Positions 7,139 to 30,675 of a DNA stretch of 64,000 nt are shown in pieces. The notes under the pieces were generated by a model that saw only the letters and a list, made by a program, of their open reading frames with translations, was not told the origin of the DNA and did not search any database. This DNA is from Elioraea tepida (GTDB lineage Bacteria > Pseudomonadota > Alphaproteobacteria > Acetobacterales > Acetobacteraceae). The position numbers were made by a program, and so were the translations under genes. The DNA lies in the NCBI RefSeq assembly GCF_019203965.1, contig NZ_CP076448.1, positions 124,001 to 188,000 on the forward strand, given 5' to 3'. Each line of letters starts with the position of its first letter. The first letter of the stretch is position 1.

Positions 7139-7354
7139 ATGTCCGCCGCCCTGCGCGCGCGCTGCGTCCGGGTCGTCAGCGCGTTTCGCCTCGCCCTTGC
7201 GCTCGCGCTGATCGATCTCCTCGCGGCGCTCCTGCAGCGCCGTCTCGTCGGTGCGGGCGGCGCCTGGCCCTGGGTTCGCCTCGCGACGAGGCTTGCCGGC
7301 CTGCCGCTTCGGCGAGGCCCGTCGCATTGCGCGCACCGGCGCGGCGGGCGATGA
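7139..7354 (+). CDS. possible small membrane protein, hypothetical
   Basis: A 71-codon reading with one hydrophobic helix (FRLALALALIDLLAALL) framed by arginine-rich ends fills most of the 281-bp gap between the putative outer-membrane protein and the MgtC-family gene. Coding potential is uncertain: such readings arise easily in this base composition and no clear ribosome-binding site precedes the ATG. It is listed because small single-helix proteins are known near MgtC/MgtE systems and because its direction matches its neighbours. Confidence 0.3.
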   Translation: MSAALRARCVRVVSAFRLALALALIDLLAALLQRRLVGAGGAWPWVRLATRLAGLPLRRGPSHCAHRRGGR

Positions 7355-7386
7355 ACGCGGCTTTCGCCTCTTGAGGGAGACCGGGC

Positions 7387-8097
7387 ATGATCGAGATCCA
7401 CGAGGCGGCGCTCAGGCTCGCTGTGGCGGTGACCGCGGGCGCGCTGATCGGTGCCGAGCGGCAATGGCGGCAGAGGATGGCGGGCTTGCGCACCAACGCT
7501 CTGGTCGCGCTCGGCGCCTGCTGCTTCACCCTGTTCGGGCTGGTCACGCCCGGCGATGCGAGCCCGACCCGCGTGGCCGCACAGGTCGTCTCCGGCATCG
7601 GCTTCCTCGGCGCCGGCGTGATCCTGCGCGAGGGGTTCAACATCCGCGGCCTCAACACCGCCGCCACGCTCTGGTGCTCGGCCGCGATCGGCGTCTTCGC
7701 CGGAGCAGGCGCGCCCGCTCTCGCCGCCGTCGCGACACTGATCATCATCGGGGTCAATCTCGGCCTGCGCCCGCTCGTGCGCCTGATCGACCGCCAGCCG
7801 ACCGCCGGCGCCGAGGTCGACCGGCACTACCGCGTCACGCTCACCTGCAAGGCGAGCAAGGAGGCGCATATCCGCGCGCTGCTCTTGCAGGCCGTGGCGT
7901 CGGCGGACGTGAAGCTGCAGCGCCTCGAGAGCGGCGACGAGCCGGCATCGGGCGACGCTCCTGCCGAGCGGGTGACGGTGACGGCGGACCTCGTCGCCTC
8001 AGGCCCGAGCGAGACATGGCTTGAGGCCACCGTGGGAAGGCTCTGCCTCGAACCGTCCGTGACCCGCGCCGGATGGTCAGAAGTGAAGACGGGCTAG
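7387..8097 (+). CDS. MgtC/SapB-family membrane protein
   Basis: A 236-residue protein. The N-terminal half has the family's membrane segments and conserved text: LAVAVTAGALIGAERQWRQRMAGLRTNALVALGA, then VVSGIGFLGAGVILREG and IRGLNTAATLWCSAAIG. The C-terminal half (about 140-236) is a soluble ACT-like domain, as in longer MgtC proteins. Family members modulate Mg2+ homeostasis or the F-type ATPase; some were first described as virulence factors. The start follows GGGAGA. The TAG stop uses the TA of the target site plus the first G of an IS5-like element. In the reconstructed sequence without the two elements the codon is still TAG, so the protein end is original. Confidence 0.9.
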   Translation: MIEIHEAALRLAVAVTAGALIGAERQWRQRMAGLRTNALVALGACCFTLFGLVTPGDASPTRVAAQVVSGIGFLGAGVILREGFNIRGLNTAATLWCSAAIGVFAGAGAPALAAVATLIIIGVNLGLRPLVRLIDRQPTAGAEVDRHYRVTLTCKASKEAHIRALLLQAVASADVKLQRLESGDEPASGDAPAERVTVTADLVASGPSETWLEATVGRLCLEPSVTRAGWSEVKTG

Positions 8098-8192
8098 GCT
8101 CCGGACCCATAATGTGTTCATAAAGTTCTTTGAGCGACGCGGGCTGGTGTGATTCGGGGTGGTTCCCTTGGCGGTGATGGAGGGGAACCGGG

Positions 8193-8983
8193 ATGAGCGA
8201 TCTGTTTTGGCTGAGCGAGGCGCAGATGCGGCGGCTTGCGCCGCTCTTGCCTTCGGAGAGACGCGGCAAGCCTCGGGTGGATGACCGGCGTGTGATCAGC
8301 GGCATCGTCCATGTGCTGCGCTCTGGTGGTCGGTGGGTCGATGCGCCGGCTGTCTACGGCCCGCGCAAGACGCTGTACAACCGTTTCGTGCGCTGGAGAG
8401 CCAAGGGCGTGTGGCAGCGCGTGTTCCGCGCGCTCGCCAGGGCTGGCGGCCCGCCGGCCGAGCTTTTGCTCGACAGCAGCCATGTGAAGGCCCATCGCAG
8501 CGCCGGGGGTGGAAAAGGGGGAGCGCGCGCAAGCCATCGGGCGGTCGGGAAACCCATCGCGGCAAGCCGCGATGGGGCCCGCCGCGGGGCGGGCGGACCA
8601 CCAAGATCCACGCGCTGACCGATCATCTTGGCCGCCCGATCGGTTTCGAACTGACCGCCGGCCAGCACGGCGATGCGCCAGTGGCACTGGCGCTGCTTGC
8701 TCCCTGGCCGTCAGCCAAGCTCTGCATCGCCGACGCTGCCTATGACAGCAACGGCATCCGCAGCTTCCTCCTCGCCCGCGGCATCCTGCCGGTGATCCCG
8801 AACAACCCCACCCGCAACCAGCACCACCCCTTCGACCGGAGCGCCTGGCGCAAGCGAAACCTGATCGAGCGCGTCTTCTGCCGCCTCAAGGATTTCCGAC
8901 GCATCGCCACGCGATACGACCGACGCGCAGACGTCTTCCTCAGCGCCGTCTACCTCGCCGCAACCGTCACTTGGTGGTTATGA
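8193..8983 (+). pseudogene. IS5-family transposase, frameshifted and carrying a palindromic insert
   Basis: From the ATG at 8193 the product reads MSDLFWLSEAQMRRLAPLLP (DUF4096-type start), GGRWVDAPAVYGPRKTLYNRFVRW, then LLLDSSHVKAHRSAGGGKGG with the first catalytic Asp. At an A4G5 run near 8515-8523 the family text moves to the next frame (ERAQAIGRS). The frame then meets a 37-base insert (8548-8584), and RGGRTTKIHALTDHLGRP continues in the third frame with CIADAAYDSNG and RNLIERVFCRLKDFRRIATRY to the stop at 8981-8983. Some IS427-group elements use programmed frameshifting, so the A4G5 shift may be natural; the insert is not. Confidence 0.85.
8546..8581 (+). repeat. 36-bp palindromic repeat, copy B
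   Basis: Sequence: CGGG-AAA-CCCATCGCGG-CAAG-CCGCGATGGG-GCCCG. The inner stem is a perfect 10 bp with a CAAG loop. It matches copy A at 764-799 read on the other strand. Removing 8548-8584 (37 bases) rejoins the transposase codons as AIGRS-RGGRTTK, the expected family text, so this is a clean insertion in a once-continuous gene. No repeat-associated transposase is visible nearby. Confidence 0.85.
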
Positions 8984-8995
8984 GTCCGGAGCCTA

Positions 8996-10155
8996 CTGGT
9001 TTGATCGAGTTGATGATTCCCTTGTTGGCCCAGACGTGGGAGTCGGGGCGGATGAGGGAAGGCGTTGAGGTCCGGTTCCGGCCGGGCGACCGGGAGCGGC
9101 TTGAAGGCGTGGTCTCTGACCGCAAGAGCCCGCGGCACCACGTCTGGCGGGCTCGGATCGTGCTGATGACCGCGGACGGCGCGGGCACGATGGCGATCCG
9201 CGCGGCGACCGGCAAAGGCAAACCCACGATCTGGCGCTGGCAGGCGCGCTCCATGCACGACGGTGCCGAGGGCTTGTTCCGCGACGCCCCGCGAGGCCGC
9301 GCCTTCGCTTCCACCTCGCCTGAGCAGATCGCCGCGGTGGTCGAACGCACGCTGCACGGCGACCCGCCAGCGGCGACGCACTGGACGTTGCGCTCGATGG
9401 GGAAGGCGAGCGGCCTGGCGCCGTCCACCATCCACCGCATCTGGCGCGAGCACGGCCTGAAGCCGCACCGGGTGGAGACCTTCAAGCTCTCCAACGACCC
9501 GAAGTTCGTCGAGAAGGTCCGCGGGCCGCAGGCAACGCCCGAAGGGCGGTACATCGTCGGCCTCTACGTCAACCCGCCCGAGCACGCCCTGGTGCTGTCG
9601 GTGGACGAGAAGAGCCAGATCCAGGCGCTCGACCGCACCCAGCCGGGACTGCCGATGAAGCGTGGCCGGGGTGCCACCATGACGCACGACTACAAGCGGC
9701 ACGGCACGACAACGCTGTTCGCCGCGCTCGACGTGAAGGCGGGCACGGTGATCAGCCAGTGCATGCTCCGCCACCGCGCGGCCGAGTTCATCCGCTTCCT
9801 GCGGCTGATCGACAAGCAGACCCCTGCCGAACTCGACCTGCACCTGATCCTCGACAACTACGCCGCCCACAAGACCGAGGCCGTGAAGCGCTGGTTGGCC
9901 CGGCATCCCCGCTTCCACCTCCACTTCACGCCGACCTCGGCCTCCTGGATCAACGCCGTCGAGGGCTTGTTCGCCACGCTGACAAAGCGTCGCCTGAACC
10001 GCGGCATCTTCCGCTCCGTCATCGAGCTGAACCAGGCCATCCGCGCCTATCTCAATGCCCACAACGCCGACCCGAAGCCCTTCCGCCGGACCGCGCCCGC
10101 CAACACCATCATCGGCACGCACCAGCGCGGGAAACCTTCGCTGGAATCACTCCAC
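8996..10155 (+). mobile_element. IS630-family insertion sequence
   Basis: The element is bounded by TA dinucleotides at 8994-8995 and 10156-10157, the target duplication typical of IS630/Tc1-mariner. The ends CTGGTTTGAT (left) and GTGGAGTGAT (right, reversed) form a short imperfect inverted repeat. It encodes one intact transposase. It abuts the IS5-like element directly: the left TA is also the right TA of that element, so one element used the duplication of the other as its target. Confidence 0.85.
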
Positions 10156-11627: not shown

Positions 11628-12788
11628 CTATCCCCAGGCCTCGCGGTAGAGGGCGATGATCTCCTCCTTGGTCGGCACGCGCGGGTTGTTGGCCGGGCTG
11701 CCGCTCGCGAGGGCCTGATCCGCCATCAGCGGCAAAAGATCGTTCCAGCGGCGTTCGTCGAGCCCGTAGCTGCGCGGGCTTGGAACCGCGAGGTCGCGGT
11801 TGAGCGCATCGAGCTCCACGATTAGCCGCGCACCGGCGGCCGCGTCGTCATCCTCGGCGCGGGCCACGCCCATCGCCCGTGCGGCCTCGGCGTAGCGCGG
11901 CAGCGCCGCGTTGAGCGAGAAGCGGGTGACGGTGGGCAGGAGCATGGCGTTGGAGAGCCCATGCGCGACGTGGAAATGCGCTCCGATCGGCCGGCTAATG
12001 CCGTGGACAAGCGCGACGGAACTGTTCGAGAAGGCAAGCCCCGCGAGCGTCGCCCCGAGCATCATCGCCTCTCGTGCCGCCTCGTTCCTCGGATCGGCGT
12101 AGGCCGTGCGTAGGTTCCGCGCGATCAGCGCCATCGCGCGCAGAGCCATGGCATCGGAATAGGGGTTGGCGCGCTTCGACACATAGGCCTCGAGCGCGTG
12201 GGTGAGGCTGTCGATTCCGGTGTCGGCCGTGGTACGCGGCGGCACGGAATGGGTGAGCGTGTGGTCGACGATCGCCGCCGCGGGCAACGCCGCGAGCCCC
12301 GCGATCAGCATCTTCTCGTTCCGTTCCGTGTCAGTGACGACCGTGAAGCGCGTCGCCTCCGAGCCCGTGCCGGCTGTGGTCGGGATTGCAATGATGGGCA
12401 GGGCGGCCATGTCGGCGGCGGCTGGAACCTTCCAGTCCCGCATCTTGCCCCCGCCGGCGGCGAGGATCGCCATCGCCTTGGCCGTGTCCATCGGGCTGCC
12501 GCCGCCGAAGCCGATCAGGCAGTCGGCGTCGCTTCCGGCGAGCCGCTTCACCCCCGCCTCGACGACCGTGTCGGTCGGGTCAGGCACCGTGTCGCTGAAG
12601 ACGGGTGGATCGATTCCACGCGCGCGCAGGGGGCCGAGAACACGCTCGACCGTGCCGGACGAGGCGAGGAACGGATCGGTCACAACGAATGGACGGGAGA
12701 GGCCGAGCTTGGCGAGAACCTCACCCACCTGCGTCACCGCAGTGCCGCCAACGAGCAGAAGCCGCGGCGAGACGATGGTCGCGATCAT
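11628..12788 (-). CDS. iron-containing alcohol dehydrogenase
   Basis: A 386-residue group III alcohol dehydrogenase. The N-terminal Rossmann-like half carries GFGGGSPMDTAKA and PTTAGTGSEATRF for NAD(P) binding. The C-terminal helical half carries the iron ligands in GIDSLTHALEAYVS and HGISRPIGAHFHVAHGLSNAM. It would oxidise an alcohol or reduce an aldehyde in the cytosol; the substrate cannot be read from the sequence. It lies 47 bp after the end of the peptide-transport operon on the same strand and may be co-transcribed with it. Confidence 0.9.
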   Translation of the reverse strand: MIATIVSPRLLLVGGTAVTQVGEVLAKLGLSRPFVVTDPFLASSGTVERVLGPLRARGIDPPVFSDTVPDPTDTVVEAGVKRLAGSDADCLIGFGGGSPMDTAKAMAILAAGGGKMRDWKVPAAADMAALPIIAIPTTAGTGSEATRFTVVTDTERNEKMLIAGLAALPAAAIVDHTLTHSVPPRTTADTGIDSLTHALEAYVSKRANPYSDAMALRAMALIARNLRTAYADPRNEAAREAMMLGATLAGLAFSNSSVALVHGISRPIGAHFHVAHGLSNAMLLPTVTRFSLNAALPRYAEAARAMGVARAEDDDAAAGARLIVELDALNRDLAVPSPRSYGLDERRWNDLLPLMADQALASGSPANNPRVPTKEEIIALYREAWG

Positions 12789-12835
12789 CGTGTTCCTCCT
12801 GAGCCGTCGAGGCGCACGCTAGGGCAGGTGCGTGC

Positions 12836-13906
12836 TCACGGCGAGGGGCGCCGCGCGGCGGCGAGTGCGAGCCGGCGGGCGACCGAGGGGCTCGGCGGGT
12901 GCGGCGCGAGGCTCGGGATGTCCGGAACGGCGAGCTCGTCGGCGCGATGGCAGGCGACGAGATGGCCCTCGCCGATCGGGCGAAGCGTAGGGCGCTCCTC
13001 GCGGCAGCGCGGCATGGCGTGGGCGCATCGCGTCGCGAAGCGGCAGCCGGGCGGCGGATTGATCGGGCTCGGCACGTCGCCGCCGAGTGCAGCCTCTCTC
13101 CGGCGACGCCTCGGGTCAGGCACAGGGATCGCCGCAAGCAGGGCCCGCGTGTAGGGGTGGCGCGGCCTTGCATAAAGTGCCGTCTTGGCCGCCGTCTCGA
13201 CGATCTCGCCGAGATACATCACGGCGATCCGATCTGACACGTGGCGCACCACGGCAAGGTCGTGCGCGATGAAGAGATATGAGAGGCCGAGCCTCTGCTG
13301 CAGGTCTTTGAGAAGGTTTACCACCTGCGCCTGGATCGACACATCGAGAGCTGAGACCGGTTCGTCGCACACCACGAGGCGCGGGTTCACCGCAAGCGCC
13401 CGCGCGATGCCGATCCGCTGCCGCTGCCCGCCCGAGAACTCGTGCGGGAAACGCTCGGCGTGATACGGCGCGAGGCCGACAAGGCGGAGCAGTTCCTCGA
13501 CGCGTGCACGGCGCTCGGCAGCATCGCCAAGCCCGTGCACCTCCATCGGCTCGGCAATGATTCGGCCAACCGTCATGCGCGGGTTGAGCGAGGCATACGG
13601 GTCCTGGAAAACGGGCTGCATCGCCCGTCGCACCGGGGCGAGAGCGGCCCCACGCAACCTGGTGATGTCCTCGCCCGCGAAACGGATCGTTCCGGCCGTC
13701 GGTTCAAGAAGCCGCAGGACGAGGCGGGCGGTGGTGCTCTTGCCGCAGCCCGATTCGCCGACAAGCGAGAGCGTCTCTCCCTCGGCGAGGTCGAACGACA
13801 CCCCGTCCACCGCGCGAACGGATCCGATCACCCGGGAGAACACGATCCCGCGCTCGACCGGGAAGTGTTTGGCAAGGTCGCGCACGGAAAGCAGCGGCGC
13901 GCTCAC
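12836..13906 (-). CDS. peptide-type ABC transporter ATP-binding protein (DppF/OppF-like)
   Basis: This 356-residue ATPase has Walker [10 protein letters not shown], the Q loop in [13 protein letters not shown], the signature [14 protein letters not shown], Walker B LVVCDEP and the H-loop [11 protein letters not shown]. The C-terminal oligopeptide/dipeptide domain follows, with the cysteine-bearing motif [15 protein letters not shown]. It pairs with the next gene upstream to energise uptake by the two permeases of the operon. The ATG overlaps the stop of that gene by four bases. A proline- and arginine-rich tail of about 35 residues follows the usual end. Confidence 0.93.
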
Positions 13907-14895
13907 GCGAGGGCGGCCTCGACCGGTGCCTGCCAGCAGGCGACGACATGACCGGGCCCGAGGGAGCGCAACTCGGGCATCTCCACCCGGCAGCGTTCAG
14001 TCGCGAAGCCGCAGCGCGGGTGGAAGCGGCAGCCGCGCGGCAAGGCGAAGGGGGGCGGCACCGTTCCCTCGATGGCAAGCAGCGTCTGGCTCTCCCCGTC
14101 GAGCCGCGGCACCGAGCCGAACAGGCCGAGCGTATAGGGGTGCTGCGCGTCGCCAAACACGGCTTGCACCGGCCCTGTCTCAACAACTCGGCCACCGTAC
14201 ATCACCGCGACCTCGTCTGCCATCTCCGCCACCACGCCGAGATCATGGGTGATGAGGATGATCGCCATCCCCGTCTCCTCCTGCAGGGCGCGGAGGAGAT
14301 CGAGGATCTGCGCCTGGATGGTGACGTCGAGAGCTGTGGTCGGCTCGTCGGCGATCAGCAGCCGCGGCGCACAGGCGAGCGCCATCGCGATCATCACGCG
14401 CTGGCGCATCCCGCCCGAGAGCTGGTGCGGATATTCTTCGAAGCGACGCTCGGGCGCGGGGATGCGCACGCGGCGCAGGCTTTCGATCGCAAGCTCCTTG
14501 GCCGCTTTCGGAGAGAGGTCGCGATGCGCGCGCACCGCCTCCACGATCTGCCGTCCTACGGTATGCACCGGGTTGAGGCTCGTCATCGGCTCCTGGAAGA
14601 TCATGCCGATCGAGCCGCCACGGAGAGCGCGCATCTCCGCTTCCGGTAGCGCGAGGAGATCGCGCCCATCGAAGCGTATCGCCCCGCCCGCGATCCGGCC
14701 CGGGCGCGGAACGAGCCGCATCACCGAAAGCGACAGCACGCTCTTGCCGCAGCCGGATTCGCCGACGATGCCGAGCGTCCTGCCGGGCCGGACGGAGAGC
14801 GACACCCCGTCCACCGCCGGTAGGTCGCCGGCGGAGGAGCGGAACACGGTGCGGAGGTTCTCGATCTCGAGGAGGGGGGCGGCCTGCTCGGCCAT
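13903..14895 (-). CDS. peptide-type ABC transporter ATP-binding protein (DppD/OppD-like)
   Basis: A 330-residue ATPase starting [18 protein letters not shown]. It shows Walker [12 protein letters not shown], the Q-loop region [15 protein letters not shown], the signature [15 protein letters not shown], Walker [13 protein letters not shown] and H-loop [11 protein letters not shown]. The family's C-terminal extension has [15 protein letters not shown]. The start at 14895 lies five bases after the stop of the amidohydrolase upstream. Together with the following gene it forms the two-ATPase engine of a Dpp/Opp-type importer at the inner membrane. Confidence 0.93.
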
Positions 14896-25865: not shown

Positions 25866-26033
25866 CCCCTCGCCCCCTCCTTGTCCGGCCAGCCCGTCCC
25901 GCGCCCCTTCGCGGCCACGCCATTTGGCCCGGGCGAGACGCTCCTGGCAACGCCATGGCGTTGCCTCATGCGATCGCGTTCACCGGGCGTTAACGCCGAG
26001 GCTGATAAAGAGCCGCAAGGCGGCGAGGGAGCC

Positions 26034-26846
26034 ATGAGCGGTCGGACGGAAGGCTCTGGGCAGGAGGAGCGGCAGGCGTCGGAGCGAGCGGCCGACGGCG
26101 CGGTCGAGCCAGGCCTTGTCTGGACCGGCGCGATCGACGCGATCGCCGCGCGGGCCAGCCTCTACCTCTCGGTCGGGTACGGCCTGCACCTCAGGGGGCC
26201 GGCCGGCACGGGCAAGGCAACGCTTGCGCGTGCACTTGCCGCGCGGCGCGGCGGGGAGATCGTCATCGCTTCCCTCGGTGCGCCGGTCGAGCCGCTCGCG
26301 GCCTTGACGGTCGCCTCGGCTGCAGGCGCGACGCTCATCGTCGATGCCGAGGCGGAAGGGTTTGCCGCGTCCGTGCCGCGGCTTGCCGCCACGCTCTCTG
26401 GAGGGGCACCGGCGCATTCCGGCTTCCGGGTGATCGTCCTGTCGCGCCCGGGCGCGGCAGTGCCGGAGCTTCTGCTCGACCGTCTGGTCACGATCGACTG
26501 CGACGGGTATGACCGGGAGACCGAGCTTGCGATCGTCTGCGCCCGAAGCGGGCTCGGCCCCGACGAAGCCGGGCGGATCATCGACATGGTGCGCGACCTC
26601 AGGCGCTCGCGCGAATACGCGCACCGGCCGAGCCTGCGCTGCGCGATCACGCTCGCGGCCCTTGCGAAGGCTTCGGGAGCCGCCATCCGCGCCGACGATC
26701 CGCTGTTCGTCGCGCTTGTTCTCGATGTGCTTGGCGCACGGCTGAAGGTTGGGCCGGATGGGCTCGTCGATCCGCGGTATCGCCAGATGCTCCAGAAGCT
26801 CGTCGGCCATTTCTGCGGCGACCGGCCGGGCCCTCTGTCGCCATGA
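26034..26846 (+). CDS. GvpN-like AAA protein with altered Walker A and short core
   Basis: A 270-residue protein whose C-terminal half is clearly GvpN-type: LLDRLVTIDCDGYDRETEL, VCARSGLG, YAHRPSLRCAITLA, then DDPLFVALVLDVLG (residues 147-234). The N-terminal half keeps LSVGYGLHLRGPAGTGKATLARALA. At the Walker A (55-62) the Thr/Ser that binds Mg2+ is Ala62. The Walker B is reduced to TLIVDAEAE (Asp104), and only about 40 residues separate the two motifs, clearly fewer than in the gas-vesicle GvpN proteins I know. GvpN is a MoxR-type ATPase helping gas-vesicle assembly. ATP hydrolysis by this version is doubtful. It heads a three-gene coupled operon without a shell protein. Confidence 0.8.
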   Translation: MSGRTEGSGQEERQASERAADGAVEPGLVWTGAIDAIAARASLYLSVGYGLHLRGPAGTGKATLARALAARRGGEIVIASLGAPVEPLAALTVASAAGATLIVDAEAEGFAASVPRLAATLSGGAPAHSGFRVIVLSRPGAAVPELLLDRLVTIDCDGYDRETELAIVCARSGLGPDEAGRIIDMVRDLRRSREYAHRPSLRCAITLAALAKASGAAIRADDPLFVALVLDVLGARLKVGPDGLVDPRYRQMLQKLVGHFCGDRPGPLSP

Positions 26847-27739
26847 CCGCACGGGTGGTGCTCACGGTCCTCGGTGTTGCGCCGGCAGAAGGGGCGGCAA
26901 GGGTTGCGGCGGCGCTCGGCTCAGGGCCGATCCCGGTGATCGTATGCCGCGCAGGCAGGATCGCCGGCTTTGCCGTGCGCGGCCGCGCCTGGATGGACCA
27001 TCGTGACGAGCTTCGGTCGGCACTGGGCCGCGCAGCGGCTGTCTCGAGCTTCCTTCCCGCTGATCCGGGCCGGGCGGTCTGCGACGCGTCCGCCTGGCCG
27101 AACGTGATCGCCGCCGCCTCCGGCCCGCTCGCCGATGCGCTCGCCCGCGACGGGGAGGCGCAGCAATGGGACGTCACGATCATGCAGTCGGAACGGCGGC
27201 CGTGCGCCGCCGACCGGGCCGGCCTCGTCCGGTCCGCACTCCTGTCGAAGGCCCTCAGCGTCAGGCTGCGCGGCACGCGTGCAGGTCTCGTGGCGAGCCT
27301 GTTGATGCCGCGGGCGTCAACGGCGAGCATGCTCGCTTTTCTGGCCGAGGTCCCCGTGCGGCTCGACGGCACCGTCACGATCGAGGGGCCGCTCCCCCCG
27401 CTCGCCTTCTCGGCCTTCCGGCTCGAGCGCGCCGAAAGCGCGGCGCTCGAGCGCGCCTGGGCGATGCTCGCGCTTCGCGACCGGACCGATCCGACCGAGC
27501 TCGCGCGGCGCTGGCGCGGGCTTGCCTTCGCGCTCGACCCACGGCGCGACGGTGGCCGCCGCTGCGAGCGGCGGTACCGCGAGGCGGGCCGTGCCTACGG
27601 GTTGTTGCGCGGTCTCGCCGAAGGTCTTGGCGCGCGGGCGTTCCGGCGTGACGAGCTCTTCGCCCTATGCGGCAGAACCGTCGCGGTCCCCACAGTCGGG
27701 ATGTCGTGGGCGGAGAGTCGCGCGATGGTGCCGGCATGA
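26843..27739 (+). CDS. GvpF/GvpL-like protein with C-terminal J-domain-like tail
   Basis: A 298-residue protein overlapping the preceding stop by four bases. Residues 1 to about 195 resemble GvpF/GvpL: a FLPADPG stretch, QQWDVTIMQ, and the characteristic EGPLPPLAFSAFRL (181-194), close to the GP-PPYSF motif that ends GvpF/L proteins. Residues 202-258 (ERAWAMLALRDRTDPTELARR, then YREAGRAYGLLRGLAE) look like a J domain in which the HPD loop reads LDPRRDGG, so DnaK stimulation would not be expected. GvpF/L proteins are minor assembly factors of gas vesicles. The fusion is inferred from pattern only; a profile search would settle it. Confidence 0.65.
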   Translation: MTARVVLTVLGVAPAEGAARVAAALGSGPIPVIVCRAGRIAGFAVRGRAWMDHRDELRSALGRAAAVSSFLPADPGRAVCDASAWPNVIAAASGPLADALARDGEAQQWDVTIMQSERRPCAADRAGLVRSALLSKALSVRLRGTRAGLVASLLMPRASTASMLAFLAEVPVRLDGTVTIEGPLPPLAFSAFRLERAESAALERAWAMLALRDRTDPTELARRWRGLAFALDPRRDGGRRCERRYREAGRAYGLLRGLAEGLGARAFRRDELFALCGRTVAVPTVGMSWAESRAMVPA

Positions 27740-29100
27740 TCAGGACGCTCGGCGCGACCTGGATCGCCGCTGCGGCGATCGCCGCCGTCGCCGCCGGCCT
27801 TGCGATATTCCATCTCGCTTCGGCAACGGCAGAGCCGATCGCGATCGCGGCGATTGCTGCGTCGATCGTCGCTGCCGTGCTGGCGCTGGTCGCCGCGCCG
27901 CTCGCGCTCGCACCGGGAGAGGCGCTGCGCGCCTCGCTGGAGCAAGGCGCGTCCGGGTGGGGAACGGCGCGGCGCGATCTCTGGGGCAGGCTCGCGCGCG
28001 AGATCGCGCGCCTCGCCGAGCCTGCCTCGCCGCCGCCTGATCCGTTCCTCGAGATGCGCCGGCTTGCGGCCAACCTCGAACTGACCCTTCGCGAGACCGG
28101 CGAGGAGATGGGTGTTGCCCGCCGCGCGGTCGCCGAGGCCGCTCAGTCGATCATCGAGGCGGCACGCGCGAGCGGCCGGCTCGCGGCCGCAGCGGAGAGC
28201 ACGGAGCAGCGGCTCGCCAGCGCCGCTGCGGCCGCCGCAGCGGCGAGCGGCGCGCTCGCGCACCTGCCCGGATACGCGAGTGTGATCGAGGCGGCATCGC
28301 ACCGGACAGGTGCGGCAGCGAGCGCGGTGACGGAAGCCCTGGCCGAGCTGATGGCGCGGCGGGAGCCATCGCCCGCCGAGGCGGCGTTGCGCGAGGCGCT
28401 CGCGCGTGGCGCCGACCAGGCACGCCGCCTCGAGGCGGTGATGCCGCTTCTGCTCGAGGCCATCAGTCGCCTGCCGTCCGCTGCGGCGAGTGGGGAGCGC
28501 CTCGCCGCCCTTGCCGAGTCGCTCGGGGCGAGCGCGGCGCTGCTGGCCGACGGGCTTGCACGGCTCGATGCCGCCTCAGCCCGGGTCGAAAGCGCCGCAT
28601 CGTCGCTCGTGGTTCCAGATTTCGCCGCTCTGCTCGAGGCCGAGGCAGCCCGCCACGCAGCGTTGCGCGAGGAGGTCGTCGCTGCCGCCGGGCTCGCGGT
28701 CGAGACCGCCGTGACCCGGCTTGCCGACGTCTCCGAGGTGATCGCGATCGACGCCGTATGGCGCGCGGGCGATGCCGCGGCCGCGGCGGTCGCCCGGGTC
28801 GAGGCCTGCGCCCGTTCGCTCGCCGAGGCAGCGGCAACCGAGCACAGCGAGCAGGAGGCTCGACTCTCTTCCCTCGCAGGCGGGCTTGCTGCCACCAGCG
28901 AGACCCTCGAACGGTGTGTGGCCGAGGCGGAGGGGCTGATTGCGCGGCTCGAGGCGGCGACGGCGACGCGTTCGCTGCCGCGCGAGGCGATCGAGGTCGC
29001 CGGGGAGGAGCCGCTTTCCTCCGTCGCGGCCCGCCTGCTCGCGGAGCTTTCTGAAACGCACGAAGAGGGGGCGGCGGTCCTGTCCGACGGCGCCGATTAG
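27736..29100 (+). CDS. membrane-anchored alanine-rich coiled-coil protein, unknown
   Basis: A 454-residue protein whose ATG overlaps the preceding stop (ATGA). Two hydrophobic segments at the N-terminus (about 8-30 and 34-58) form a hairpin anchor. The rest, about 390 residues, is rich in Ala, Glu, Arg and Leu with long heptad-like stretches and no globular motif. The layout resembles chemoreceptor-like or apolipoprotein-like helical rods, but no HAMP or signalling hairpin motif was recognised. I do not know the family. Its tight coupling to the GvpN-like and GvpF/L-like genes suggests a joint role at the inner membrane. Confidence 0.75.
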   Translation: MIRTLGATWIAAAAIAAVAAGLAIFHLASATAEPIAIAAIAASIVAAVLALVAAPLALAPGEALRASLEQGASGWGTARRDLWGRLAREIARLAEPASPPPDPFLEMRRLAANLELTLRETGEEMGVARRAVAEAAQSIIEAARASGRLAAAAESTEQRLASAAAAAAAASGALAHLPGYASVIEAASHRTGAAASAVTEALAELMARREPSPAEAALREALARGADQARRLEAVMPLLLEAISRLPSAAASGERLAALAESLGASAALLADGLARLDAASARVESAASSLVVPDFAALLEAEAARHAALREEVVAAAGLAVETAVTRLADVSEVIAIDAVWRAGDAAAAAVARVEACARSLAEAAATEHSEQEARLSSLAGGLAATSETLERCVAEAEGLIARLEAATATRSLPREAIEVAGEEPLSSVAARLLAELSETHEEGAAVLSDGAD

Positions 29101-29105
29101 TCGGA

Positions 29106-29125
29106 CGATCGTCTGCGAACGATCG
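29106..29125. terminator. small inverted repeat between convergent operons
   Basis: CGATCGT and ACGATCG form a 7-bp stem with a 6-base loop, in the 66-bp gap between the coiled-coil gene and trpE, which converge. It could stop transcription from both sides, but it lacks T-runs. Confidence 0.3.
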
Positions 29126-29166
29126 CCGGCGCGATCGCGGCCCGCGCCCTGGCCTGACCCCACCTC

Positions 29167-30675
29167 TCAGCGCCCGCCGCGCTGGAAGCGCACGGCTTCC
29201 TCGGCGGCGCGGATCAGCGCGCGCGCCTTCTGGCGCGTCTCCTCGTACTCCGCTTTCGGGTCGCTGTCGGCCACCACGCCGGCGCCGGCCTGAACATAGA
29301 GCATGCCGTCCTTCACCACGGCGGTGCGCAGACCGATGCAGGTGTCCATGTTGCCGCGCGCGTCGAAATAGCCGATGCACCCGGCGTAGATCCCGCGCCG
29401 CTCCGGCTCGAGCTCCTCGATGATCTCCATGGCGCGGACTTTCGGCGCGCCGGAGAGGGTGCCGGCCGGGAACCCGGCGCAAAGCGCGTCGATCGCATCG
29501 AGCCCCTCGCGCAGCCTTCCCTCCACGGTGGAGGAGATGTGCATGACATGGCTGTAGCGCTCGACCACGAACTGCTCGGTGACGCGCACGCTGCCGATGG
29601 CGGCCACACGGCCCACATCGTTCCGCCCGAGGTCGAGCAGCATCAGGTGTTCGGCGCGCTCCTTCGGGTCGGCGAGCAGTTCCTGCTCGAGGCGCTGGTC
29701 CTCCTCATGGGTGGCGCCGCGTGGGCGTGTTCCCGCGAGCGGCCGGATCGTCACCACCCCGTCACGCAGGCGAACCATGATCTCGGGCGAGGAGCCGACC
29801 ACGGCGAACCCTCCGAAGTCGAGGAAGAACAGGAAGGGCGAGGGGTTGAGCCGGCGCAGGGAACGGTAGAGGGCGAAGGGCGGCAGGGAGAAGGGAACGC
29901 GGAAGCGCTGCGAGGGGACGATCTGGAACGCATCGCCTGCGGCGATGTACGCCTTGGCGCGTTCGACCGCGGCGATGAACTCGGCCTCCGTCATGTTACT
30001 CTCGACGGGCCCGAGGGAGGCGCTCGTGCGCGGTGCGGCTGGCGGCGGAGGAAGGGGGCGGGCGAGCGCGGCCGCGGCTGCGGCGAGGCGGGCTTCCGCG
30101 GCGGCAATCGCCGCCTCAGCGTCGAGCCCCGGTTCGGGCCGGAGCGTCGTGGCGAAGGTGAGTGTGTCTGCCACCGTATCGAACACGGCGACGATGGTCG
30201 GCCGCATCAGGATTCCGTCGGGCAGGCCGAGCGGATCGGGGTTCGTTTCGGGGATCCGTTCGATCCGGCGGACGAAATCGTAGGCGAGGTAGCCCACGAG
30301 GCCTGCGGCCATAGGCGGCAGGTGCGAAGGCACCTCCACCCGAGCCGAGGCGACCAGCGCCCGCAGCGAGGCGAGCGCTCCCTCCGGCTCCGGGCGCCAG
30401 GCCTCCGGGTCGGTGAGCGCGAACCGGTTGATCTCCGCCCGGTCGCCGCGGCAGCGCCAGATCAGGTCGGGGTCGAGCGCGATGATGGAGTAGCGGCCGC
30501 GCGTGGCGCCGCCCTCGACGCTCTCGAGCAGAACCGCGTTCGGCCGCCCGGCAGCCAGCTTGAGGAAAGCGGAGACCGGCGTCTCGAGATCGCTCACCGT
30601 TGTGGTCCACAGGAGCTGCGGCCTGCCCTCGGCATAGGCCGCGCGGATGGCCTGCGGGTCGTGCGCCTCAGTCAT
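29167..30675 (-). CDS. trpE: anthranilate synthase component I
   Basis: This 502-residue protein has the N-terminal regulatory domain with LLESVEGG (tryptophan-binding region) and the chorismate-binding domain with TIRPLAGTRPRG, LADPKERAEHLMLLDLGRNDVG, GTLSGAPKVRAMEIIEELEP and the final GCIGYFDARGNMDTCIGLRT. It makes anthranilate from chorismate together with TrpG, encoded 16 kb away. The ATG overlaps the ppiD stop by four bases, an arrangement familiar from other alphaproteobacteria. There trpE is often followed by trpGDC; here those genes are separate and on the other strand. Confidence 0.95.
   Translation of the reverse strand: MTEAHDPQAIRAAYAEGRPQLLWTTTVSDLETPVSAFLKLAAGRPNAVLLESVEGGATRGRYSIIALDPDLIWRCRGDRAEINRFALTDPEAWRPEPEGALASLRALVASARVEVPSHLPPMAAGLVGYLAYDFVRRIERIPETNPDPLGLPDGILMRPTIVAVFDTVADTLTFATTLRPEPGLDAEAAIAAAEARLAAAAAALARPLPPPPAAPRTSASLGPVESNMTEAEFIAAVERAKAYIAAGDAFQIVPSQRFRVPFSLPPFALYRSLRRLNPSPFLFFLDFGGFAVVGSSPEIMVRLRDGVVTIRPLAGTRPRGATHEEDQRLEQELLADPKERAEHLMLLDLGRNDVGRVAAIGSVRVTEQFVVERYSHVMHISSTVEGRLREGLDAIDALCAGFPAGTLSGAPKVRAMEIIEELEPERRGIYAGCIGYFDARGNMDTCIGLRTAVVKDGMLYVQAGAGVVADSDPKAEYEETRQKARALIRAAEEAVRFQRGGR

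Follow-up and report, generated by a model that had tools for sequence, protein, structure and literature searches.

Studies of accessory Gvp proteins usually treat them as helpers of the GvpA shell. What is a set of them doing in a bacterium that has no shell gene? The question is raised by a stretch of 64,000 nucleotides from Elioraea tepida, a hot-spring bacterium. This stretch, the window, covers positions 124,001 to 188,000 of NZ_CP076448.1, a single contig of 3,367,643 bases. In it, three genes are joined by two ATGA overlaps and bounded on both sides by genes on the opposite strand, an arrangement described in the original prediction and confirmed by frames and coordinates. The three genes, hereafter the trio, are the following.

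26034..26846, plus strand: gene 1, GvpN-like AAA+ protein P0001 (270 amino acids), predicted to be catalytically inactive (TIGR02640, BLASTP, motif losses, AAA+ core in the predicted model)
26843..27739, plus strand: gene 2, GvpF/L protein P0002 (298 amino acids) in fusion with a worn, DnaJ-like domain at the C-terminal end (hhalign match with six GvpF/L-J proteins of gas-vesicle clusters)
27736..29100, plus strand: gene 3, membrane-anchored protein P0003 (454 amino acids), with a long coiled-coil-like part (two hydrophobic segments; homologue in a second Elioraea genome, G001, at 47% identity)

Our best reading is that the trio is a reduced Acetobacteraceae gas-vesicle cluster, kept by purifying selection for some function without vesicles, and that its products act as a membrane-tethered, energy-uncoupled binding scaffold. 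To this reading as a whole we give a probability of about 0.62.

Absence of a shell gene

Within the window, 788 open reading frames of at least 40 amino acids were compared with 21 queries, 14 of which came from the region of a complete related gas-vesicle cluster. No gvpK, gvpG, gvpO, gvpV, further gvpF/L or gvpA-like gene lies beside the trio, the gvpA query also standing for gvpJ. The best stray matches, at E 0.0048 and 0.0065, are to frames overlapping the trio's own genes. The claim that gvpA, gvpK, gvpG and gvpJ are missing from the window therefore holds. Searches of the whole E. tepida genome covered gvpA, GvpN, P0003 and the fused form of GvpF/L that gene 2 encodes (GvpF/L-J); gvpK, gvpG, gvpO, gvpV and gvpJ were sought in the window only. 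The gvpA family model, PF00741, finds no match in this genome or in the other two Elioraea genomes (0/3), and the same search was positive in related genomes. The cited part of an account of the E. tepida MS-P2 genome gives one circular contig and no plasmids (PMC8781829).

The same gene set is present in all three Elioraea genomes, E. tepida (G000), bin.267 (G001) and E. rosea (G002), and is thus more than a chance arrangement. Recurrence in genomes lacking gvpA, which the original prediction had raised, is in this way borne out within the genus. A scan of genome contigs with P0001 as query gave no match; two Elioraea contigs came up when the GvpF/L-J alignment was used instead. The third gene of E. 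rosea is divided between two contig ends, so tests on this gene used E. tepida and bin.267 only.

Family membership of the three proteins

The best NCBIfam match of P0001 is GvpN (TIGR02640), with an E-value of 2.7e-29 and 102.5 bits, below the curated cut-off of 266.8; the next-best family reaches only 0.003. Against the GvpN of a complete cluster, BLASTP gives 169 bits at 40% identity. The predicted model of P0001 has an alpha/beta core, with block values of the predicted local distance difference test (pLDDT) of 70-91 over residues 41-160.

Searched directly, P0002 matches no Pfam or NCBIfam family, and PF06386 (GvpL_GvpF) does not match the bin.267 and E. rosea copies either. Aligned as a group with six gas-vesicle GvpF/L-J proteins, the Elioraea copies give an hhalign probability of 99.9 (E 1.4e-34, 279 columns). 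Three of those six, scanned singly, match PF06386 above the gathering score at 36-44 bits, and BLASTP links P0002 directly to PF06386-positive proteins of complete clusters (1e-17 over 138 positions). In a twelve-member alignment of the family (A6), nine reach PF06386 with an E-value of 1 or less (G270 below the gathering score), and six match DnaJ (PF00226; best E 2.8e-9). A profile of this alignment finds DnaJ chains in PDB at 2.2e-5 and the gas-vesicle protein structure 4qsg at just E 0.6. From this homology and the PF06386 and DnaJ matches of its family, gene 2 is, as judged by sequence, a GvpF/L protein with a DnaJ-like tail. Both proteins thus trace to the lineages originally named, GvpN and GvpF/L, with P0001 short of its family cut-off and P0002 placed through its relatives.

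P0003 has hydrophobic segments at residues 10-28 and 35-53 followed by a long alanine-rich stretch, which was read by eye from the sequence as a coiled coil.

Relationship to complete gas-vesicle clusters

Complete clusters in the same family would explain how three such genes come to stand together. In G046 the order is g, gvpN, V, O, A, F, G, GvpF/L-J, L, an A-like gene (J), K and a membrane coiled-coil protein of 713 amino acids. Here gvpA was identified by PF00741, and V, O, G and K are putative assignments from sequence. This order is repeated in G165, G255, G432, G217, G313, G395 and others. With g set aside, the Elioraea trio corresponds to its first, middle and last members, in the same order, and for this reason we read the trio as a reduced cluster. 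The set does lack a shell gene, as the original prediction stressed, and this match ties it to known clusters.

How common the parts are was surveyed in 397 genomes of the family. Seventeen have a GvpN above the cut-off, and 19 have a GvpF/L-J match of at least 113 bits (one, in G248, is cut by a contig end); most other GvpF/L-J matches are to the J domain only. A long GvpF/L-J match accompanies GvpN in 13 of the 17. Among the 19 GvpF/L-J genomes, 14 have gvpA and five do not: the three Elioraea, G420 and G270.

A protein of 713-937 amino acids follows gvpK in G046, G432, G313, G395 and G437-G439. Where scanned, it has two strong hydrophobic segments (G046, G395, G313) or one (G432). P0003 is similar in architecture and place, with a weak sequence match, and may be the same protein.

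Several points weigh against the favoured reading. Four of the 17 GvpN-positive genomes (G345, G387, G117, G434) have no long GvpF/L-J match; clusters of the family can thus lack the fusion. BLASTP relates P0003 only weakly to the coiled-coil proteins of the clusters (3e-4, with biased composition). A C-terminal profile finds the E. rosea copy at 4e-4, away from its C-terminal end, and does not match the bin.267 or E. tepida copy. The AlphaFold model of P0002 is poor (mean pLDDT 41). Finally, gene 3 of E. tepida appears to have been truncated recently: it stops at a TAG, short of a C-terminal stretch that the E. rosea and bin.267 copies have.

29098..29157, plus strand: in-frame TAG followed by 18 codons similar to the C-terminal ends of the other Elioraea copies and by a TGA (sequence comparison)

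Other features of clusters in the family were recorded. A broken cluster stands at a contig start in G035 (G035:C20, L059 3-1578), where a gvpN piece runs into a gvpL piece, followed by an A-like gene and gvpK; the fused frame reflects either an internal deletion or an assembly error. Small paralogous proteins and one further gene, presumably photoactive-yellow-protein-like, occur near clusters (L006 10104-10601, L046 6244-6714, L047 6257-6727, L048 4419-4826, L060 3943-4317). The frame of this gene in G046 is split by a stop. Some clusters have about 2 kb, with further genes, between gvpG and GvpF/L-J (L049 ~7204-9262, L052 ~12339-14415, L055 ~7306-9393).

Loss of energy-coupling motifs

The motifs of the GvpN-like protein are altered, as had been noted originally. 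Two of them lie in the window as follows.

26196..26219, plus strand: Walker A, GPAGTGKA (alignment A1)
26331..26357, plus strand: degenerate Walker B, TLIVDAEAE, canonical form TLVYDEFNR (alignment A1)

The Walker A lysine is kept in two of three Elioraea copies, including that of the window, and is arginine in E. rosea. At Walker B the three copies read TLIVDAEAE, TLVIDGPAP and TLLADGAGA. The Walker B glutamate and the sensor-1 asparagine are replaced in all three and present in 4/4 canonical rows of the alignment; the asparagine, part of TSNP, has become Arg, Ser or Ala. Compared with the G046 copy, each Elioraea species lacks 33-37 residues between Walker A and Walker B; the arginine of LxDR is retained. 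From these losses, the Elioraea GvpN copy probably no longer hydrolyses ATP.

The loss is uneven along the protein. In the middle region, identity is 34-43% within Elioraea and 81-85% among three canonical GvpN. In the lid (residues 148-215), the Elioraea copies agree at 43-47 of 68 positions and the same three canonical copies at 41-49 of 68, the L049 row having been left out of both canonical counts for its incomplete 3' end.

The J-like tail of gene 2 shows a parallel change.

27386..27409, plus strand: GPLPPLAF motif of the GvpF/L end (conserved columns in alignments A2 and A6)
27452..27616, plus strand: J-like domain with HPD replaced by ALDP, among the most conserved parts within Elioraea

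J-domain proteins need their HPD motif to stimulate DnaK. HPD is present in 9/9 aligned gvpA-positive copies, which are nine of 17 (the 14 above plus G437-G439; G246, G248, G251, G357, G365 and G437-G439 are unaligned). It is ALDP in all three Elioraea and absent from all five gvpA-less Acetobacteraceae copies (Elioraea, G420 and G270). The original prediction had suggested that the set could be a repurposed assembly or remodelling machine at the membrane. With the GvpN glutamate, asparagine and 33-37 residues lost and the J-like tail, which that prediction does not mention, lacking HPD, both energy-coupling sites look dead, and an active machine is unsupported.

Selection on the trio

By the method of Nei and Gojobori (NG86), the ratio of nonsynonymous to synonymous rates (dN/dS) is 0.47-0.51 for gvpN, 0.46-0.53 for GvpF/L-J and 0.51 for the coiled-coil gene. 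Neutral evolution was simulated 300 times per pair, tuned to the observed divergence at fourfold sites. The observed amino-acid identity of 0.47-0.55 is two to three times the neutral means of 0.17-0.25 and exceeds the highest single simulation (0.361) in all seven Elioraea pairs; the observed values are somewhat favoured, since they come from aligned real sequences and the simulation has no indels. Frames are open in every copy read whole, that is, gvpN and GvpF/L-J of three species and the coiled coil of two. Simulated pairs free of stop codons ranged from 2/300 (coiled coil) to 74/300 (gvpN); taken by themselves, open frames therefore say little.

Weighing on the other side, dN/dS in the trio is about 1.6-5 times that of the flanking genes (0.10-0.29), which makes the constraint a weak one. 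Constraint on the trio is real, but weaker than in its flanks. That a shell-less set is kept under selection is upheld by both dN/dS and the simulation, and purifying selection suggests that the trio has some function without vesicles.

A proposed binding scaffold

In the reading that we favour, gvpN, GvpF/L-J and the coiled-coil gene would have been kept in order as the shell genes and other accessory genes were lost, all of this before the three Elioraea species split. The coiled-coil protein would anchor a complex at the inner membrane. There, the GvpF/L domain may bind a helix of amphipathic or hydrophobic character, in the way that GvpF binds GvpA. What is left of GvpN may offer a platform for binding, without hydrolysis, by way of its conserved C-terminal lid. 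Neither ATP hydrolysis nor DnaK would any longer supply energy. The lack of gvpA, together with the loss of the Walker B and HPD motifs, points to a binding complex that spends no ATP through GvpN or DnaK. Work on vesicle-forming organisms, in the parts cited here, proposes GvpF as a chaperone of the shell protein (PMC11445434), thought to bind and shield it, and describes only small or bicone vesicles when GvpN is missing (PMC11445434, PMC9372576, PMC4982088).

The preservation of these proteins by selection suggests that part of the vesicle-building kit has a second job. Lineages without gvpA are natural material for asking which molecules GvpF/L and GvpN bind in a cell that makes no shell, and a J domain in GvpF/L raises a possible role for DnaK in vesicle assembly in the Acetobacteraceae. 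The parts belong to known families. A gvpA-less gvp subset kept by selection and a GvpF/L-J fusion are apparently unreported: among the papers listed by a literature search, none reports either in its title or the abstract shown.

GvpF/L-J without a shell in other lineages

Elioraea is not alone. In another Acetobacteraceae genus (g135), GvpF/L-J occurs in eight of 15 genomes, six with gvpA and two without (G420 and G270). G420 has GvpF/L-J and a coiled-coil gene, and G270 has GvpF/L-J, GvpL and a coiled-coil gene. The same genes flank the set in both, and they are not the ones found at the Elioraea site. Between them, dN/dS is 0.84 for GvpF/L-J and 0.53 for the coiled coil, and identity is above neutral expectation for both (0.51 against 0.31 and 0.57 against 0.28). 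The Elioraea and g135 reductions appear independent, given their different sites, different gene content and the gvpA-positive sister species in g135 (6/8). The tree does not carry this argument; a single clade of gvpA-less Acetobacteraceae copies was neither shown nor rejected (approximately unbiased test, p-AU 0.36, in a tree without the rows of family f161 described next).

Beyond the family, a survey of the alphaproteobacterial class found GvpF/L-J in 4 of 385 genomes at 1e-12: the window genome, G644, G704 and G617. G644 has a cluster with gvpA. G617 has a weak match with two internal stops and no gvpA. G704 also lacks gvpA, and in its order the gene is present in 5/33 genomes, these being all five genomes examined of family f161, none with gvpA. 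A gene for a protein of 885-1023 amino acids, with two N-terminal hydrophobic stretches seen by eye, lies beside GvpF/L-J in four of the five; in the fifth, G784, tblastn found no such coiled-coil neighbour in 20 kb. Altogether, GvpF/L-J without gvpA is clustered with a coiled-coil gene in 6/7 genomes outside Elioraea (two of g135, five of f161). Its presence without gvpA in these further lineages implies that loss of the shell has more than once left accessory genes behind. The G704 copy shares only 15-21% identity with other GvpF/L-J, and we are unsure of the position of the f161 copies in the tree.

The f161 loci hold one further feature. Directly upstream of GvpF/L-J, L084 (10450-12657), L093 (9725-11935) and L095 (9979-12294) carry a gene for 735-771 amino acids, and the L084 copy reads by eye as a sensor kinase.

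These genomes open an alternative, in which the GvpF/L-J and coiled-coil pair is an independent co-chaperone module, vesicle-free in several lineages and also serving vesicle assembly where a shell exists. The gvpA-less sets of G420 (a pair) and G270 (with GvpL between) and the pairs in four of the five f161 genomes fit it well, as does the PF06386 match of 83 bits in G704. So does the HPD motif, intact in 5/5 gvpA-less f161 copies, which counts against an energy-uncoupled scaffold as the general outcome; loss of HPD as a general consequence of shell loss was rejected on these copies. Set against this, the coiled-coil partners are not demonstrable as one family by sequence, G704 is highly divergent, no tree shows one orthologous set, and 14 of the 19 Acetobacteraceae GvpF/L-J genomes have gvpA. 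We consider this alternative unlikely, if the strongest of the competitors. Slightly better placed, and still tentative, is a form that takes in Elioraea: GvpF/L-J and its membrane coiled-coil partner would be an autonomous vesicle-free co-chaperone or scaffold module in at least three alphaproteobacterial lineages, with Elioraea keeping an inactivated GvpN and dropping the DnaK-coupling motif. If true, a wider membrane-linked assembly system would exist, with gas vesicles among its clients.

Relic, unrelated AAA+ operon or hidden shell

The trio could instead be a useless relic, a gas-vesicle cluster in slow decay. Fast protein evolution relative to the flanks, lost catalytic motifs, the early TAG in the coiled-coil gene and the near-neutral GvpF/L-J ratio in gvpA-less G420 and G270 would all be expected of one, and the G035 remnant with its fused gvpN and gvpL pieces may show such decay. 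What a relic does not explain is identity well above the neutral simulation in all seven Elioraea pairs and in both G420/G270 pairs, or a lid and J-like region that are conserved where the motor core is not; the open frames, weak evidence by themselves, point the same way. We therefore hold a relic to be improbable.

An origin outside gas vesicles, from a MoxR/CbbQ/NorQ-type AAA+ protein with unrelated partners, could appeal to CbbQ and NorQ as the best Foldseek PDB matches of the P0001 model and to the missing Pfam match of P0002, but a fold match of this kind does not tell the two origins apart, GvpN too being a MoxR-like AAA+ protein, and the family ranking of P0001 (2.7e-29 against 0.003), its identity to a cluster GvpN, the operon order and the homology of P0002 make this origin very improbable. 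Equally remote is a vesicle-like shell still built in Elioraea from a protein invisible to PF00741: the genome-wide shell search did use a single family model, but PF00741 matches listed for the 17 gvpA-positive GvpF/L-J genomes are all at least 49 bits, the window (to which this search was confined) holds no gvpK, gvpG, gvpO or gvpV, and the GvpN motor motifs are gone.

Neighbouring genes and a related pairing

On the minus strand, the trio is flanked by genes that we take to be SDR (high end 25865) and trpE (29167-30675). The SDR gene adjoins the trio in all three Elioraea genomes, and trpE is at the opposite side in E. tepida and bin.267.

25866..26033, no strand assigned: gap of 168 base pairs separating the trio from the divergent SDR gene, a possible place for a promoter (gene coordinates)

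A pairing that echoes GvpN with GvpF/L-J was seen elsewhere in the family. In at least seven genomes, a short J-domain match and a MoxR/GvpN-like AAA+ match are no more than about 1 kb apart (G404:C1:4839401-4840558, G199:C6:11705-12767, and also G275, G143, G361, G017 and G340).

Comparison with known systems

Each protein of the trio's first two genes resembles a known family and departs from it. P0001 is like GvpN (TIGR02640) in gene position, best family match, Walker A, the LxDR arginine and the C-terminal lid. It differs in the Walker B glutamate, the sensor-1 asparagine and the 33-37 missing residues, in falling below the family cut-off and in standing in a genome with no shell gene. 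P0002 is like GvpF/GvpL (PF06386) in having the GPLPP motif and in being homologous, over nearly its whole length, to PF06386-positive proteins of clusters; its C-terminal J-like domain, the lack of a direct PF06386 match and a genome without gvpA set it apart. Relative to DnaJ and other J-domain proteins, the GvpF/L-J profile finds DnaJ structures and many short J-domain-like matches in other genomes, and the Elioraea copies differ by ALDP in place of HPD.

Two known clusters come closest to the Elioraea situation, as described in the cited parts of their sources. Streptomyces coelicolor keeps gvp genes as a soil organism, with mention of an unidentified function; its cluster encodes GvpA and has no gvpN, whereas in Elioraea gvpA is gone and gvpN is kept (PMC4982088). 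The gvp cluster of Anabaena PCC 7120 is called intact but partially degenerated. Unlike the Elioraea trio, it assembles irregular vesicles in E. coli, and its GvpN is an active ATPase (PMC7204071).

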